Shown piece by piece: positions 3,197 to 48,346 of a stretch of DNA of 64,000 bases; the first letter of the stretch is position 1, and every line of letters begins with the position of its first letter. The stretch is from Parvibaculum sp. (GTDB taxonomy: Bacteria > Pseudomonadota > Alphaproteobacteria > Parvibaculales > Parvibaculaceae). The stretch spans positions 186,001 to 250,000 of the forward strand of contig JAUSMV010000005.1 of the NCBI GenBank assembly GCA_030645235.1. The letters are read 5' to 3'. Below the pieces are notes generated by a model. The model ran no database searches. It had not been told where the DNA came from and saw nothing but the letters and a program-made list of their open reading frames with translations. Made by a program: the position numbers and the translations under genes.

Positions 3197-3380
3197 AATC
3201 AGCATTTCTTGCAAGAGATTCGAGGTTTCCATGCAGAGATCGTTAGTCAGTTCGTTGAGTGTCCGCGTGTGACGGGGGAAAGCCAATCCCCAGGTGAGGA
3301 TTAGAATCGGGGATTAAAATTCAGGACGCCGCCGGGGATCAGAATTTAGGATGCCGCAAAAAAATTTATGCCCGCTTTTG
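3197..3380 (-). repeat. Dispersed repeat A, copy 1 (ABC-F-derived core)
   Basis: About 184 bases between ridA and the HU gene. The core at 3197-3261 matches copies at 36835 and 44290. Read on the minus strand in frame it gives LNELTNDLCMETSNLLQE, recognisable beside the ABC-F signature LDEPTNDLDMETLDLLQE that copy 2 encodes. The other half holds repeated GGGGAT motifs and an AAATTTATGCCCGC end resembling the tails of the other copies. No complete gene can be read through it. Confidence 0.7.
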
Positions 3381-6846: not shown

Positions 6847-6857
6847 TTACTTTTTAC

Positions 6858-6908
6858 TGAACCCTCCCCTTGAGGGTAATTATCACCTTGACATAGTAGA
6901 CACTAAAT
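6858..6908. repeat. Left boundary: partial repeat B plus 31-bp inverted repeat
   Basis: 6858-6876 is an exact 19-base inverted match to the outer end of repeat B at 8311-8329. Next to it, 6878-6908 is a 31-base inverted match (two mismatches) to 8152-8182. Together they bound the segment carrying the membrane-protein gene. Confidence 0.7.
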
Positions 6909-7062
6909 CTGTCACAGAAGCCTTTGAGGCCGAGAGTCTTCTGTGAATATTTATGCAATGGACAGACGGGATAAATACTCTTTTTAGGAGGGTAATTAGG
7001 CCAATTGTACCACAGAGCATTCTTGAGGGTTTTAGGTGAGGGTGTGGGCGGCGATGGCCGCT
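6909..7062. other. Non-coding stretch downstream of the membrane-protein gene
   Basis: It includes an inverted repeat CACAGAAG/CTTCTGTG at about 6914-6945 that could act as a terminator-like hairpin. No gene is supported. Confidence 0.3.
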
Positions 7063-8142: not shown

Positions 8143-8151
8143 AAGCACCAA

Positions 8152-8182
8152 ATTTAGTGCCTACTATGACAAGGTGATAATT
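8152..8182. repeat. Right 31-bp inverted repeat of the 6.9-8.3 kb segment
   Basis: The reverse complement of 6878-6908 with two mismatches. It directly abuts repeat B. Confidence 0.7.
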
Positions 8183-8183
8183 G

Positions 8184-8329
8184 CCCCCTTGAGGGAGGGT
8201 CAAAAAATCTCCTTGGATTTTTTGGGGCGGGGGAACGAAAGACACAGCAAATTCAGAACCTGACGAGAGACCGCGCCCCCGCCCCAAACGGCGAAGACGC
8301 CGTTTGACCCTCCCTCAAGGGGAGGGTTC
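8184..8329. repeat. MITE-like palindromic repeat B, copy 1
   Basis: About 146 bases with terminal inverted repeats (CCCTTGAGGGAGGGTCAAA left, TTTGACCCTCCCTCAAGGG right). Inner arms are TTTTTTGGGGCGGGGGAACGA and CCCCCGCCCCAAACGGCG. A second copy with the same arms but a different centre lies at 48181-48332. No transposase is encoded, so it would be non-autonomous. Confidence 0.75.
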
Positions 8330-8425
8330 AAGGGTAGAGTTCACTCAGCTACTTTTACTGTTTCGCCCAAAGCCCTCCCCCTCTGGGAAGAGCGGAAATA
8401 AGACGCCATGACGAGGACCATAGAG

Positions 8426-27375: not shown

Positions 27376-29172
27376 TCAGCGCACCGCGTCCCGCGTGGCA
27401 ACCGCGTCCTCAATGTTGAGCTGAACGCCCCTTTTTCCTTGCCAATCATCGGCTTTGAGCCGTCCTGCGACATGGACCGGACCTGTGCCGCGATCGAGCA
27501 AAGCCTTACCGAGCGGCGTCTCAGCGGCCCTGAAAGCGATGGCTTTGAGCTTTGACCCATCCTCGCCCGCCAGCGTGCAACGGACATGGCCCTTGCCGAC
27601 AATGTCGGCATAGACCACCCGCACCGAGGGCACAGCAAAACGGGGTTCGGGATTGCCCGACCCGTAGGGACCGGCCTGCTCCAGCATTTCATACATCTCA
27701 CGATTGGCCCCGCGCACGGCCAGCGCGCCATCGAGACGGAGCGCACGCGATTCTGTGGCAAGCGAGACTTCATCGGCGACGCGAGCCGTCAGAAATTCCA
27801 TGAAAGCTTCGAGTTTGTCTTCGGAAATGGTGAGACCCGCCGCCATCGCGTGACCGCCACCATTCACCAGATGACCCGCCTCAAGCGCGGCGGTGACGGC
27901 GCGTCCGAGATCCACCCCCTGAAGAGAGCGGCCCGAACCCTTGCCCTCGCCTTTCGCATCAAAGGCAATGACGATGGCGGGACGGTCGTATTTTTCTTTA
28001 AGCCGTGCTGCAACAATCCCGATGACTCCGGGGTGCCAACCCTGGCCCCATGCAAAGATCACAGGCGGCGGCGCGTTCTTTCGAGTGGTTTCTTGCAAGA
28101 GATCGAGTGATTTCGAGGCAAGTTCGAGTACTTCGCTCTCTATGGCCTGACGCTCCTTGTTGAGCACATCAAGCTCCAAAGCGATGGCCTCTGCCTCCGA
28201 CTTATCCCCGGTGGTAAGCAACCTTGCACCGAGATCGGAACGCCCGACGCGACCACCGGCATTGACACGCGGACCGAGGAGAAAGCCTAAATGATATGTC
28301 CCCGGTTTGCCGTCGAGACGCGCAACGTCGCCGAGCGCCGCGAGACCAACATTTCCCCGCTTTGCCATAACGCGCAAACCCTGCGTCACGAACGCGCGAT
28401 TGAGACCGACAAGCGGAACCACATCGCAGACCGTGCCGAGCGCGACAAGATCGAGCATCGCCATCAAGTCCGGCTCATTACGTGTGGTGTAGAAGCCGCT
28501 GGCGCGCAATGCCCGGTTGATCGCGACGATGAAGAGGAAGGCGACACCGACAGCAGCGAGCGTGCCGAGACCACTCGTATCGTCGAGACGGTTGGGATTG
28601 ACCAGCGCAAAGGCGGGCGGCAGAGAAGGTTCAGCCTGATGATGGTCGATGACGACAACCTCAAGCCCGGCATCCTGCGCCACGCCGAGCACACGATGAG
28701 CCATAGTGCCGCAATCGACCGTGACGATGAGTTTGATGCCTTCATCGCGCAGCGTCATCAGCGCAGGCGCGTTAGGGCCGTAACCTTCGCGGATGCGGTC
28801 AGGAATATAGATACGCAAATCCTGCCCGACGGCCTGGAAGAATTTTTGCAGCACCGCTGATGATGTTGCTCCGTCCACATCATAGTCGCCGAATACAGCG
28901 ACACGCTCACCGGCGATAATGGCGGACGCAATGCGCGAGGCGGCTTTGTCCATGTCCGTGAGGACGGACGGATCGGGCAGCAGGGTTTTGAGCGAGGGGG
29001 AGAGATAGGCGGCAACGTCATCGGGCGCGATGTCGCGACCGGCCAGAACACGGCCAATGATTTCCGGCAGACCCTCACGCTGGGCAATGGCCAGCGCCAA
29101 ACGATCATCGGCGAGACGGCTCACCCAGGCACGGCCTGTGAGAGAACGTTCGACGCCGAGGAAGGGTTTCAT
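27376..29172 (-). CDS. recJ: Single-stranded-DNA exonuclease RecJ
   Basis: A 598-residue 5'-3' ssDNA exonuclease used in recombination and mismatch repair. DHH-family motifs are seen in order: VFGDYDVDGATSS, IVTVDCG, VIDHHQAE, ALGTVCDVVPL, then the DHHA1 part GGGHAMAAGLTI and the C-terminal OB-like region. The ATG at 29172 was chosen because the longer frame starts inside a REP palindrome. The gene also contains a 21-base exact match to repeat A copy 3 at 28089-28109. Confidence 0.95.
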   Translation of the reverse strand: MKPFLGVERSLTGRAWVSRLADDRLALAIAQREGLPEIIGRVLAGRDIAPDDVAAYLSPSLKTLLPDPSVLTDMDKAASRIASAIIAGERVAVFGDYDVDGATSSAVLQKFFQAVGQDLRIYIPDRIREGYGPNAPALMTLRDEGIKLIVTVDCGTMAHRVLGVAQDAGLEVVVIDHHQAEPSLPPAFALVNPNRLDDTSGLGTLAAVGVAFLFIVAINRALRASGFYTTRNEPDLMAMLDLVALGTVCDVVPLVGLNRAFVTQGLRVMAKRGNVGLAALGDVARLDGKPGTYHLGFLLGPRVNAGGRVGRSDLGARLLTTGDKSEAEAIALELDVLNKERQAIESEVLELASKSLDLLQETTRKNAPPPVIFAWGQGWHPGVIGIVAARLKEKYDRPAIVIAFDAKGEGKGSGRSLQGVDLGRAVTAALEAGHLVNGGGHAMAAGLTISEDKLEAFMEFLTARVADEVSLATESRALRLDGALAVRGANREMYEMLEQAGPYGSGNPEPRFAVPSVRVVYADIVGKGHVRCTLAGEDGSKLKAIAFRAAETPLGKALLDRGTGPVHVAGRLKADDWQGKRGVQLNIEDAVATRDAVR

Positions 29173-29209
29173 TGGCGGGGTCCACAAAGAGAGCAAGTTA
29201 GTAAGTAAG

Positions 29210-29250
29210 ACCCTCACCCAACCCTCTCCCGCAAGCGGGAGAGGACTAAG
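29210..29250. repeat. REP-like palindrome between glpX and recJ
   Basis: The core CTCTCCCGCAAGCGGGAGAG is a perfect palindrome, preceded by ACCCTCACCCAACC. This is a common bacterial REP style. It occurs once here, in the short gap between two same-strand genes. Confidence 0.7.
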
Positions 29251-29264
29251 AAGGTGAAAAGTTC

Positions 29265-30224
29265 TTACTGCGTCTTGTGCAGTGTCTTGACCCAACGGAC
29301 TGTACCGGTCTTGGAGCGCATCACGACCGAGTGCGTGGTGAAGCCGCCACGGACCTGACGGATGCCTTCGAGGATGTTGCCATCGGTGACGCCGGTTGCC
29401 GCGAAGATCACATCGCCCGAGGCCATTTCTTCCATCGTGTATTTCTTATTGAAATCCGTCACACCCATTTTAAGCGCGCGGGCTTTCTGGTCTTCGCTGT
29501 CTGTGACAAGACGGCCCTGCATCTGGCCGCCGATGCAGCGGAGAGCTGCGGCTGCGAGCACGCCTTCGGGTGCGCCGCCGATGCCCATATACATGTCGAT
29601 GCCGGTGGTCGGATCGGTCGTGTAGATAACGCCCGCAATGTCACCATCGGTGATGAGCGTGACGCGCGCGCCGGTTGAACGCACAGCTTTGATCATCTCG
29701 TCATGGCGGGGACGGTCGAGAATGCAAACGCAGATTTCATTCGGTTGCACGCCTTTGGCTTTGGCAAGACGACGCACATTATCATCAGGCTTCGCATCAA
29801 GATCGACAGTGCCTTCAGGATAGCCGCCGCCAATGGCGATCTTGTCCATATAAGTGTCCGGCGCATGCAAGAGCGTGCCGCCTTCGGCCATGGCGAGAAC
29901 GGCGAGCGAATTGGACATGGCTTTGGCGCAGAGCGTTGTGCCTTCAAGCGGGTCGAGTGCGATGTCCACTTTCGGACCCTTACCGGTGCCGACTTTTTCG
30001 CCGATGAAAAGCATCGGAGCTTCGTCGCGTTCGCCTTCGCCGATGACGATGGTGCCGTCAATGTCGAGCTTGTTGAGTTCGGTGCGCATGGCATCGACGG
30101 CGGCCTGGTCTGCGGCCTTCTCGTCGCCACGTCCGGCGAGCTTTGCTGAAAGTATCGCGGCGCGTTCCGTGACACGTGTCACTTCCAGCGTCAGCATTCT
30201 GCTCAAACCCTTATTCTCAGCCAT
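29265..30224 (-). CDS. glpX: Class II fructose-1,6-bisphosphatase
   Basis: A 319-residue GlpX-type enzyme removing the 1-phosphate of fructose-1,6-bisphosphate (and often sedoheptulose-1,7-bisphosphate) in gluconeogenesis. Metal and substrate motifs are GEGERDEAPMLFIGE, DPLEGTTLCAK, GDIAGVIYT and GIGGAPEGVLAAAALR. It lies 51 bases after hom, the usual hom-glpX-recJ order of alphaproteobacteria. Confidence 0.95.
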   Translation of the reverse strand: MAENKGLSRMLTLEVTRVTERAAILSAKLAGRGDEKAADQAAVDAMRTELNKLDIDGTIVIGEGERDEAPMLFIGEKVGTGKGPKVDIALDPLEGTTLCAKAMSNSLAVLAMAEGGTLLHAPDTYMDKIAIGGGYPEGTVDLDAKPDDNVRRLAKAKGVQPNEICVCILDRPRHDEMIKAVRSTGARVTLITDGDIAGVIYTTDPTTGIDMYMGIGGAPEGVLAAAALRCIGGQMQGRLVTDSEDQKARALKMGVTDFNKKYTMEEMASGDVIFAATGVTDGNILEGIRQVRGGFTTHSVVMRSKTGTVRWVKTLHKTQ

Positions 30225-36730: not shown

Positions 36731-36834
36731 TATGACGTCATAGATGCGCGACGGACTTTGGGTCAAAAGTGAGCTTGCGCATGACGATCACAAAACGGGG
36801 ATAAACGGCTTTTCAGGCTCGCAACAGGCTCGAA

Positions 36835-36972
36835 AATTCCAGCGATTCCTGCAAGAGATCGAGCGTTTCCATGTCGAGATCGTTCGTCGGTTCATCGAGG
36901 GTCGCGAGCAAGCCCTCGGAAAGTAATTATCGGGTGGGGATAGAGGCGGAAATAAATTTTATACCCACTTGA
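36835..36972 (-). repeat. Dispersed repeat A, copy 2 (best-preserved ABC-F core)
   Basis: On the minus strand 36897-36847 reads DEPTNDLDMETLDLLQE in frame, the Walker B and D-loop of an ABC-F ATPase; the frame runs back to LLATL and forward to a TGA. The tail 36920-36972 (AGTAATTATCGGGTGGGGA, ending ATACCCAC) matches copy 3. The region 36731-37090 holds no gene apart from this element. Confidence 0.75.
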
Positions 36973-44289: not shown

Positions 44290-44477
44290 AATCAGTTGGA
44301 ATTTCTTGCAAGAGATCGAGTGTTTCCATGCAGAGATCGTTGATCAGTTCGTTGAGTGCACCGACCTGACGCGCGAAAGCCTATCCCCGGGTGGGGATAG
44401 GCTTTATTTTTGAAAACTTATCCCGCAAAAGTAATTATCGGGTGGGGAGTAGGATAAAAATAAATCTATACCCACCC
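44290..44477 (-). repeat. Dispersed repeat A, copy 3
   Basis: 188 bases. The core on the minus strand reads LNELINDLCMETLDLLQE, sharing the NEL and DLCM changes with copy 1. It contains a palindrome CCTATCCCCGGGTGGGGATAGG-like hairpin at 44380-44403 and the tail AGTAATTATCGGGTGGGGA at 44430-44448 shared with copy 2. The rest of 44478-44538 is a pyrimidine-rich stretch without a gene. Confidence 0.7.
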
Positions 44478-45737: not shown

Positions 45738-46256
45738 ATGACCACGACCTATATCGACGCCTGGCGCAAGAGCGATCCGAAACTGGAGGCTGCCGCGACG
45801 GCGTTTTGGACCGAGCTGAATTTACTGCCGGAAGGCGCAACGGCGGCGGAGCGATTAAAAGAACTTGCCGTGCTCGCCTATGACGGCGCAACGCTGATCG
45901 GGGTCTCGACACTCAAGATCAATTTTTTCGATCAACTGCGACAGAAATTTGCCTTTGCGCGCGAAGCCATCCGGCCCGAATACCGTCTGCAATCCGTCGG
46001 ACGGGATCTGATGCTCGCCACGCGCGAGGTCATTGAGCCCTATGCGCTGGCTCATCCCGAAGAAGAGATCGCGGGCATCGGCGCTATCTATCAGGCCCCC
46101 GGTATCGGCAAGCGCGGCATCGGCCGCAAGACACGTCTGGCGCTGATCGGCTATACAGCAAAGAACGAACAGGTGCGCATCGGCTGGTTCAGCCACTTCA
46201 TCGTGCCGCCGAACCTGACACCGCCAAAACCACGTACAGGCGGGGGCGCTGAATAA
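45738..46256 (+). CDS. Tandem paralog family, copy 1 (GNAT-like, function unknown)
   Basis: 172 residues, no assigned family. Shared layout of all four copies: YIDAWRKSDPKLEA start, a beta-strand pair LAYDGATLIGVSTL, a strand FAFAREAIRPEYRLQSVGRDLM, a helix ending YALAHPEE, IAGIGAIYQAPGIGKR, and a final WFSHFIVPPNL. The third block looks like a degraded acetyl-CoA motif (R-x5-G-R). I infer a divergent GNAT fold, but catalysis is not shown. It is the first of four overlapping genes and is divergent from ctaA. Confidence 0.7.
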   Translation: MTTTYIDAWRKSDPKLEAAATAFWTELNLLPEGATAAERLKELAVLAYDGATLIGVSTLKINFFDQLRQKFAFAREAIRPEYRLQSVGRDLMLATREVIEPYALAHPEEEIAGIGAIYQAPGIGKRGIGRKTRLALIGYTAKNEQVRIGWFSHFIVPPNLTPPKPRTGGGAE

Positions 46257-46777
46257 TGGCCGTCACCTTCGTCACGGCCTGGAAGAAAAATGATCCGAAG
46301 CTCGAAGCCGATGTGATCGCGCTGTGGCGCGGGATGAACGTGTTGCCGAAAGGCGAGAGCACGGACAAACGGGTCAAGCAGATTGCTATTCTCGCTTATG
46401 ATGATGACCGGCTTGCCGGTATTTCATCGCTTGAGGTGCAGGCTATTCCGCAGCTAAGACAAAAATTTGCCTTTGTGCGTGAACTGATCCATCCCGATTA
46501 TCGCAAAAATCTGATTGCGCGCACGTTGGTCAAGCACACGCGCGAAATGATCGAGGCCTATGCACTCGCTCATCCCGAAGAAGCGATTGCGGGCCTCGCC
46601 GCCGTATTTCAAACGCCGCATCTGGGTAAGCGCGCCATCGGCCTTGAAAGCGGCATGGGATTGATCGGCTATACGGATAAGCATGAACAAATCCGCGCCG
46701 GTTGGTTTGAACATTTTATGGTACCGGCAAATCTGACGCCACCGTCAGAGTTCCCAGAATTGGATATAGTAGAATGA
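46256..46777 (+). CDS. Tandem paralog family, copy 2
   Basis: 173 residues. It aligns end to end with copy 1: AWKKNDPKLEADVIALWRGM, LAYDDDRLAGISSLEV, FAFVRELIHPDYRKNLIARTL, AYALAHPEEAIAGLAAVFQ and AGWFEHFMVPANLTPP. The GR after the motif-A-like R is altered to AR, so an acetyl-CoA site is doubtful. The start shares one base with copy 1's stop, indicating coupled translation. Confidence 0.7.
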   Translation: MAVTFVTAWKKNDPKLEADVIALWRGMNVLPKGESTDKRVKQIAILAYDDDRLAGISSLEVQAIPQLRQKFAFVRELIHPDYRKNLIARTLVKHTREMIEAYALAHPEEAIAGLAAVFQTPHLGKRAIGLESGMGLIGYTDKHEQIRAGWFEHFMVPANLTPPSEFPELDIVE

Positions 46778-47292
46778 GTGTTGAATATATTGATGCATGG
46801 CGCAAAGATGATCCGCGTCTTGAAGCCGATGCGCGGCGCATCTGGTCTGAGCCCGGCGTGTTGCCCGAAGGCAAGGGAACGGAAACGCGGATGAAGGAAC
46901 TCGCTCTCGTCGCTTATGAAGACGGACAGCTTGCGGGGCTGACGACACTCGATGTGCGCGTGTTTCCTTATGTCCGACAGAAATTTGCATTCATTCGCGG
47001 ATTTATCCTGCCAGCGTTTCGCATGAAAGCCGCCGGACGCGACATCATGCTCGAAACACACAAGATGATCGAGACCTGGGCGCTCAAGAATCCGGGCGAG
47101 AAACTTGCGGGGCTGGCCGCCATTATTCAGGTGCCCGGCGTCGGTGATCATCCGGTTGGCCGGAGCACAGGCATGGTGTTGGTCGGCTACACTGATCGCA
47201 ATGAGCAGGTGCGCATTGCGTGGTTCGATCATTTCCGTGTGCCGCTCAATCTCCCGACCCTCGCCCCCGAAAATCTGACCGGAGAAAAATGA
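46774..47292 (+). CDS. Tandem paralog family, copy 3
   Basis: 172 residues with the same block order: YIDAWRKDDPRLEADARRIW, VAYEDGQLAGLTTLDV, FAFIRGFILPAFRMKAAGRDIM, LKNPGEKLAGLAAIIQVPGV and RIAWFDHFRVPLNLP. It overlaps copy 2 by four bases (ATGA). Composition matches its neighbours, so the family is not obviously foreign. Confidence 0.7.
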   Translation: MSVEYIDAWRKDDPRLEADARRIWSEPGVLPEGKGTETRMKELALVAYEDGQLAGLTTLDVRVFPYVRQKFAFIRGFILPAFRMKAAGRDIMLETHKMIETWALKNPGEKLAGLAAIIQVPGVGDHPVGRSTGMVLVGYTDRNEQVRIAWFDHFRVPLNLPTLAPENLTGEK

Positions 47293-47783
47293 TGGCCGTT
47301 GATTATGTCGTGGCTTGGCAGAAGAGCGATCCGGCGCTGGAAGCAGACGCGATCCGCGCATGGTCAACGACAGGCGTCCTGCCGAAAAGCGACGGACCCG
47401 AAGTCCGCATAAAACAACTGGCATTGGTTGCTTATGAGGACGGAGCGCTTGCCGGACTATCGACACTGAATATCCGGCCCTATGAACCGCTCAAGCAAAA
47501 GTTTGCTTTCATGCGCGGGTTCGTCATGCCTGATTTTCGTATGCATGAAGTCGGTCGCGACCTGATGGTTGAAACGCTGAACATGATTGAGCAATGGGCT
47601 TTTGAGCATCAGGACGAAAAAATAGCCGGTATGATGGCTGTCGTTCAGATACCGGGTGTCGGCAGAGAACCGGCGGGCAAGAAAATAAAAGCCACGCTGA
47701 TCGGCTATGTGAACGGCAATCAGCAGCTACGGCTCAGATGGTTTGATCATTTCCGTGTGCCACCGAACATGACGGACTTCTGA
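47289..47783 (+). CDS. Tandem paralog family, copy 4
   Basis: 164 residues: YVVAWQKSDPALEADAIRAW, VAYEDGALAGLSTLNI, FAFMRGFVMPDFRMHEVGRDLM, DEKIAGMMAVVQIPGVG and RWFDHFRVPPNM. The start at 47289 overlaps copy 3's stop (ATGA) and has GGAG close upstream. It looks closest to copy 3. The last intact copy before a fifth, decayed one. Confidence 0.7.
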   Translation: MMAVDYVVAWQKSDPALEADAIRAWSTTGVLPKSDGPEVRIKQLALVAYEDGALAGLSTLNIRPYEPLKQKFAFMRGFVMPDFRMHEVGRDLMVETLNMIEQWAFEHQDEKIAGMMAVVQIPGVGREPAGKKIKATLIGYVNGNQQLRLRWFDHFRVPPNMTDF

Positions 47784-48180: not shown

Positions 48181-48332
48181 AACCCTCCCCTTGAGGGAGG
48201 GTCAAAAAATCATCTTTGATTTTTTGGGGCGGGGGAACGAAATCCGCCGAGAGTTCAAACATTGCGTTGGGCACCATGCCCCCGCCCCAAACGGCGAAGC
48301 CGCCGTTTGACCCTCCCTCTAGGGGAGGGTTC
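48181..48332. repeat. MITE-like palindromic repeat B, copy 2
   Basis: About 152 bases with 26-base terminal inverted repeats (48181-48206 and 48306-48331, one mismatch), each itself nearly palindromic. The inner arms match copy 1 at 8184-8329; the central 50 bases differ. Confidence 0.8.
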
Positions 48333-48346
48333 AAAAAAGTAGAAAC

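Follow-up and report, generated by a model that had tools for sequence, protein, structure and literature searches.

An evenly spaced dispersed repeat with a core resembling uup Walker-B DNA, a possible chromosomal landmark in a Parvibaculum genome

The chromosomal sites matS, Noc, SlmA and KOPS are sequence-specific and occur in tens, and they are shorter than the element described here, regional or polar. REP/BIME repeats are located in convergent spacers and are bound by gyrase and IHF; regular spacing is, to our knowledge, not a feature of REP sequences. In the accessible part of one account, REP sequences are high-copy extragenic repeats made of palindromes of 20-40 bp with GTAG/CGTC tags (PMC3733652). 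The DUS of Neisseriaceae and the USS of Pasteurellaceae are described, in the available sections of the source, as dispersed motifs with dialects that occur both within and beyond coding regions, as well as at terminators (PMC3630211). Rickettsia palindromic elements (RPEs) lie in frame inside unrelated protein genes, according to the portion of the article available (PMC10969869). Literature searches, largely outside subscription papers, gave no paper on a uup-derived or evenly spaced repeat. The repeat described here has a core of about 39 nt that is nearly invariant and is found at no fewer than 94 separate places in one Parvibaculum genome (G000), uup included.

The window is a stretch of 64,000 nt of this genome, positions 186001-250000 of contig C36, and holds three copies on the minus strand. 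One protein encoded in the window has among its nearest named relatives those of two Parvibaculum MAGs (83 and 86% identity) and of a Hyphomicrobiales MAG (86%); the genome is taken as a Parvibaculum. The 61-nt core of copy 2 (36839-36899) contains a 39-nt weight-matrix site at 36844-36882 with a score of 56.6. It is of the GAC ('DLD') form and its translation is the nearest to Uup among the window copies; the in-frame minus-strand reading given for it in the preliminary description, LDEPTNDLDMETLDLLQE (also given as DEPTNDLDMETLDLLQE), was confirmed, as were the diverged copies 1 and 3 with the translations LNELTNDLCMETSNLLQE and LNELINDLCMETLDLLQE. Copy 1 has its core, 'NELTNDLCMETSNLLQE', at 3199-3259 (minus strand; matrix site 3204-3242, score 66.5) and is of the TGC form with the CCTCGAAT variant. 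The core of copy 3, 'NELINDLCMETLDLLQE', is at 44296-44356 (minus strand), and its matrix site at 44301-44339 ties for the highest score, 74.1. Boxes or hairpins adjoin all three cores and were read from the sequence, on the minus strand. Copy 2 has an upstream box, TATCCCCACCCGATAATTA, at 36923-36942 and a downstream box, TTTATCCCCG, at 36797-36806, copy 1 a hairpin-like upstream box (AATCCTCACCTGGGGATT) at 3283-3305, and copy 3 an upstream hairpin, AGCCTATCCCC...GGGGATAGGCT, at 44378-44403. The GGGTGGGGA tail reported earlier for copies 2 and 3 is present, but it is part of this upstream TATCCCC/GGGGATA box or hairpin. All three copies noted at the outset are real; a partial fourth one, ...ASKSLDLLQETTRK... 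at 28088-28126 on the minus strand (score 30.0), had been overlooked. It lies in frame within recJ (27376-29295, minus strand; TIGR00644 above cut-off; the start is that of the ORF listing and the true one may be further downstream).

Other repeats were also seen in the window. Four adjacent ORFs of 172-187 amino acids at 45738-47783 carry direct repeats (families D1, D3, D4 and D5) every 518 bp and form a tandem gene array. Another pair of dispersed repeats (CCCCTTGAGGGAGGG... / ...CGCCGTTTGACCCTCCC) is found at 8185-8331 and 48187-48334, 40 kb apart and 86-94% identical, and a sequence like it adjoins the copy of the present repeat at C36:135193. Inverted arms of 59 nt at 6853-6911 and 8149-8207, 78% complementary and 1237 nt apart, surround overlapping ORFs and are possibly a small mobile element.

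The figure of 94 places was obtained from the pattern searches with four added places and one weight-matrix find, minus three chance rows (31, 26 and 23) that were removed from a set of 93. The 28-mer CATGGAAACACTCGATCTCTTGCAAGAA with up to three mismatches was found at 67 places in G000, 49 of them exact, and the reversed 28-mer at none. The 16-mer of the right half, GATCTCTTGCAAGAAA, with at most one mismatch gave 87 places in G000 against none for its control; in 26 further genomes of the genus it had no match. The dispersal proposed in the preliminary description thus extends over the whole genome in both searches. The exact 28-mer was absent from a wider collection of genome contigs, in which G000 itself is possibly not included. 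The shared orientation noted earlier holds for the three window copies but not genome-wide, where 29 places of the 28-mer are forward and 38 reverse; on contig C55 the copies are divided 13/13, with no strand bias. Strand polarity of the sites was considered, and neither the order of strands nor GC skew at the loci gave evidence of it. The TGC form of the core is present in 58 of 93 rows. Two copies (L082 and L083, at about 1282.3 and 1437.3 kb of contig C58) contain one more 21-nt core unit, placed in tandem, and the tandem-unit copy within addB has a second in-gene copy 0.76 kb away.

A 39-nt weight matrix applied to 804 kb of G000 sequence gave 19 matches above 8 bits, all scoring at least 30, while the reversed control gave no match above 8 bits. 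The scan recovered a full copy missed by the patterns, at C58:670246, so that a few more copies are to be expected elsewhere. No weak sites of intermediate score were found in the 804 kb, which favours copying over stepwise selection as the origin of the core.

The copies outside genes usually have an outer box. GGGGATA or TATCCCC was looked for 10-180 nt upstream, in a set without the second register of the tandem copy and without C58:670246, and was found at 67 of the 82 copies that lie outside genes and at 5 of 11 in-gene copies. The background was 51 of 4336 windows of equal length (1.2%) in 740 kb of G000 sequence, true copies included, and a control window 430-600 nt upstream had the box in 0 of 93. 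Downstream, the corresponding numbers are 40 of 82 and 1 of 11. The upstream distance within genes is 69 nt in tlyA and in the SDR gene, 92 nt in recJ (where the box still lies inside the gene), 114 nt in hemH, and 133 and 174 nt in the TamB-like gene; with such variation box and core are unlike a single copied block. The copy at mdh has GGGGATTT and TTATCCCC upstream.

The gene context was determined with our own codon-based gene caller for 94 rows, one of which is the second register of the tandem copy. In the 76 intergenic rows the neighbouring genes are convergent in 44, tandem in 27 and divergent in 5; the remaining rows are within a gene, on its own strand (10) or on the opposite one (4), or at an edge (4), and several of the rows called inside are frames open upstream of the gene. 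The list of in-gene copies was compiled by frame inspection and family scans, and comprises about 11 places: uup, tlyA, recJ, prmC, exbD, a TamB-like gene, hemH, queD, addB (two) and an SDR gene. The repeat had been described as dispersed and intergenic, which is correct for most rows but not for these. The TamB-like gene was named by inspection and has just a weak GspN-type match in the family scan, the queD product is above the cut-off of the PTPS family and below that of the QueD model, and the addB_alphas match covers a fragment and is under its cut-off. The in-gene copies are on either strand.

The copies are more evenly spaced than expected by chance. For 92 sites on four large contigs (copies less than 1 kb apart merged, the C22 copy excluded), the coefficient of variation of the gaps was 0.609 compared with 0.952 under uniform placement, a null not limited to the available spacers; a value this low was obtained in 1 of 20,000 simulations (P=5e-5). 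The 82 sites not counted as in-gene gave 0.657 (P=1e-4), and the result was similar before C58:670246 was added. The mean spacing is about 35-40 kb per site. The ten in-gene sites are remote from other copies, with a geometric mean of 23.6 kb to the nearest one, where random points gave 9.5 kb (P=0.0019; P=0.008 for the nine sites without uup). Three gaps of 96-105 kb contained no site even at a low matrix threshold, and the spacing is thus over-regular but not strictly periodic. Weak sites filling the large gaps were sought and none was found in gaps 1-3; gap 4 holds the full copy at C58:670246.

The likely source of the core is uup. A typed 61-nt consensus agrees with the Walker-B DNA of the uup gene of G000 at 58 of 61 positions. 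This gene (C58, about 540.5-542.3 kb) has PF16326 above cut-off together with ABC_tran and ABC_tran_CTD, and in NCBIfam it matches the Uup model best, with 611 bits, under the cut-off of 900. Among five uup genes compared, the Leu-Gln codons are TTG CAA in the G000 gene only, CTA CAG in that of G003, and CTG CAG in those of G012, G001 and G008. The repeats of G000 carry TTG CAA, as their own uup does, and copying from uup to the repeat is therefore likely; the reverse direction is possible for this short segment. Further upstream in uup, CTTATCCTCGCCCGGGCATT aligns by inspection in register with CTATCCCCGCCYGGGGATT of the repeats. The uup gene itself lacks the TGC form, which in that gene would replace the second Asp of DLD. 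Copy 2 also resembles an EttA-type gene (39 nt at 85%) and a YheS-type gene (33 nt at 88%) of the same genome, and the likeness to ABC-F genes seen at first reading is thus upheld. The uup core was also considered as unusually constrained DNA and is no outlier, since identical-codon windows reach 0.80 near the core and 0.87 elsewhere. One further ABC-F gene, on a contig of 3630 bp (L010, C71), is unlike the others of the genome; this contig may be contamination, the assembly being rated 3.31% contaminated.

The repeat is also present in a sister genome, G003. The pattern TCGACATGGAARCACTCGA with up to two mismatches gave 65 matches in G000, 24 in G003 and 0 to 5 in each of the remaining 25 genomes, where some matches are uup itself (seen for G012, G001 and G008). 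One of the 24 places examined in G003 is uup. Flanking alignments show that 19 of the other 23 have a G000 copy at the orthologous place, the flanking genes being mostly 70-88% identical; four have no such counterpart, and among these L262 at the least may match by chance. Conversely, where both flanks of a G000 site were in the sampled G003 sequence, a scan with a G003-trained matrix detected a copy at one of eight sites and none at seven. Many G000 sites may therefore be recent, and the family predates the split and has since grown in G000 or shrunk in G003. The genomes also differ in single genes: copies are found inside prmC and queD in both, with the G003 frame open through the site, but inside tlyA in G000 only. 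The copy at the exbD locus of G003, clipped by the contig end, aligns with that of G000. One in-gene copy of G003, in an apparent alanine racemase gene (named by inspection; L264, contig C93 at about 6.7 kb), has no G000 counterpart that could be found. A core lies 5' of a rimP-like gene (named by inspection) in G003 (L233, about 9277) and in G000 (L040), and the open frame at the latter would append a Ser-rich extension to the rimP-like protein.

Copies at shared sites are species-typical and not site-typical. Over 63 nt, the identity of 18 usable orthologous pairs was 0.53 and that of non-orthologous cross pairs 0.50, compared with 0.73 within G000, 0.58 within G003 and 0.81 between G000 copies and their own uup; the clipped G003 copy (L271), the uup pair and the side match C58_358689/L253 were left out of the pairs. 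Unit 2 was chosen by the search pattern while unit 3 is unselected in G003, and in unit 3 the values were 0.43 for orthologues, 0.42 for cross pairs, 0.77 within G000 and 0.51 within G003. In the 5' third the orthologues are slightly closer than cross pairs (0.38 against 0.30), and agreement within G003 is 0.29. The likeness to uup in G003 is confined to about 24 nt (0.94 in unit 2, 0.31 in the 5' third). Homogenisation is strong in G000, whereas in G003 it is weak except in the central unit. Other Parvibaculum loci, restricted to rows with the gene end in view, had no core by eye at mdh (G004, G001), recA (G001, G010, G012), an fdx-type gene (G004, G013, G018) and truA (G012). The G000 matrix was also negative there, yet it was negative at three of four G003 loci too, so that a different dialect is possible at these loci.

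The preliminary description proposed a gene fragment that had become a spreading repeat. The origin stands, since the 58 of 61 matching positions and the synonymous codons of the local uup point to uup DNA, but a fragment that spreads passively would not be expected to show in-gene places, species-typical shared copies and over-regular spacing. The regular spacing, with copies inside genes that fall in long gaps and have upstream boxes themselves, argues either for selection on the site or for target immunity. Target immunity would account for the spacing if the repeat were a selfish, MITE- or RPE-like non-autonomous mobile repeat with a captured uup fragment, whose insertions are tolerated in convergent spacers; this is the main alternative and we regard it as unlikely. 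The spacer is longer in G000 than in G003 at six of seven compared sites, by 65 to 494 nt (at C58:736759 by 318 nt, with G003 contiguous), the tlyA product exceeds that of G003 by 7 residues, and GGGGATA/TATCCCC boxes flank many copies on one or both sides, all as a mobile element would predict. The excess lengths vary widely, however, and at another site it is G003 that has the longer spacer. Fixed ends or target duplications were not recognised, with no clean duplication visible by eye in seven comparisons of G000 and G003 sites. In prmC and queD, which align gap-free across the core to solved homologues, the core replaces sequence and adds none, and both the varying distance between box and core inside genes and the species-typical orthologous copies speak against insertion of a unit. 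Neutral ectopic gene conversion, by which decayed and functionless uup fragments would be homogenised with uup and with each other, agrees with the codons of the G000 uup in the G000 repeats, with a likeness to uup that extends past the part common to G003, and with the absence of weak intermediate sites. It predicts neither the over-regular spacing and the remote in-gene copies, nor the boxes inside genes, nor a dominant TGC form that is absent from uup, and is given a quite low probability.

A transformation-type uptake signal with species dialects, like DUS/USS, would explain the species-typical sequence at shared sites, the copies inside coding genes and the positions at gene ends, but is improbable with about one site per 35-40 kb instead of thousands per genome, a core of about 39 nt, and enriched 8-mers in the window (copies masked) that are not core words. 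An RNA element at gene 3' ends, that is a terminator, a processing site or an sRNA, is highly improbable. Hairpins adjoin the core and the location is often between convergent genes, but single-sequence folds of the core are not consistent (mean z -0.9 in G000 and -1.2 in G003), both orientations occur between genes and the in-gene copies are on either strand. Rfam searches of 8 loci at E up to 0.5 gave 9 matches, none over the core; those off the core carry miRNA, whalefall-1, sRNA and leader names only.

The reading preferred here over a selfish element with immunity and over neutral conversion, at a little short of an even chance, is that the repeat is a functional DNA site, spread by ectopic copying from uup and recognised by a putative binding factor. 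The evidence suggests that it acts as a DNA landmark and is not plain junk. The core would be a putative sequence-specific binding site whose two half-sites resemble each other and lie 21 bp, or two helical turns, apart. By inspection, half-site-like boxes are CTCTGCATGGAAA and CTCTTGCAAGAAA in G000 and CTCGACATGGAAA and TCCGACAGGAAA in G003, both boxes differing similarly from one genome to the other, and on this pattern the pair could be protein half-sites. The core would be recognised by a chromosome-scale factor with a role in topology, segregation or something comparable, and selection would retain about one site per few tens of kb. Species-typical shared copies and the lack of weak intermediates argue for copying among sites; ectopic copying, whether by gene conversion or by template switching, would create new sites and homogenise them, with uup and the other sites as templates, in-gene copies would persist where the reading frame tolerates the core, and uup itself would be one of the sites.

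Taken as a whole, the proposal is that of a new chromosome-scale spacing element, in which Walker-B DNA of uup doubles as a putative binding site and has seeded about a hundred even copies, homogenised genome-wide, in frame in housekeeping genes with a separate GGGGATA box, and with a recognition dialect that, like the synonymous codons of uup, is not the same in the two sister species. This full proposal is tentative and rather less likely than not. If the sites are functional, a piece of the coding DNA of a housekeeping gene has turned into a landmark used across the genome, and the family would offer a test case in the creation, spacing and dialect switching of dispersed sites. Even if selfish or neutral, it is a strong example of bacterial ectopic copying at dozens of loci.

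Several features of the described systems are found in the repeat. Species dialects like those in the available account of DUS/USS are seen here in the two genomes compared; DUS/USS are short motifs with thousands of copies, whereas about 100 copies of a 39-nt uup-derived core with over-regular spacing are present here. The in-frame presence in protein genes is shared with RPEs. These are, in the part of the source available, insertions of about 150 bp, while the present core is derived from uup and adds no length in queD and prmC; nor is it palindromic on inspection or consistently folded. High copy number and a mostly extragenic location (44 of 76 rows convergent) recall REP/BIME as far as these are covered by the accessible account, but about 11 places are in genes, and no palindrome or tag of the kind given there was seen on inspection of 75 aligned rows. 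Compared with matS, Noc, SlmA and KOPS, the sites described here are genome-wide, show no strand bias on contig C55 (13/13), and have a binding factor that is putative.
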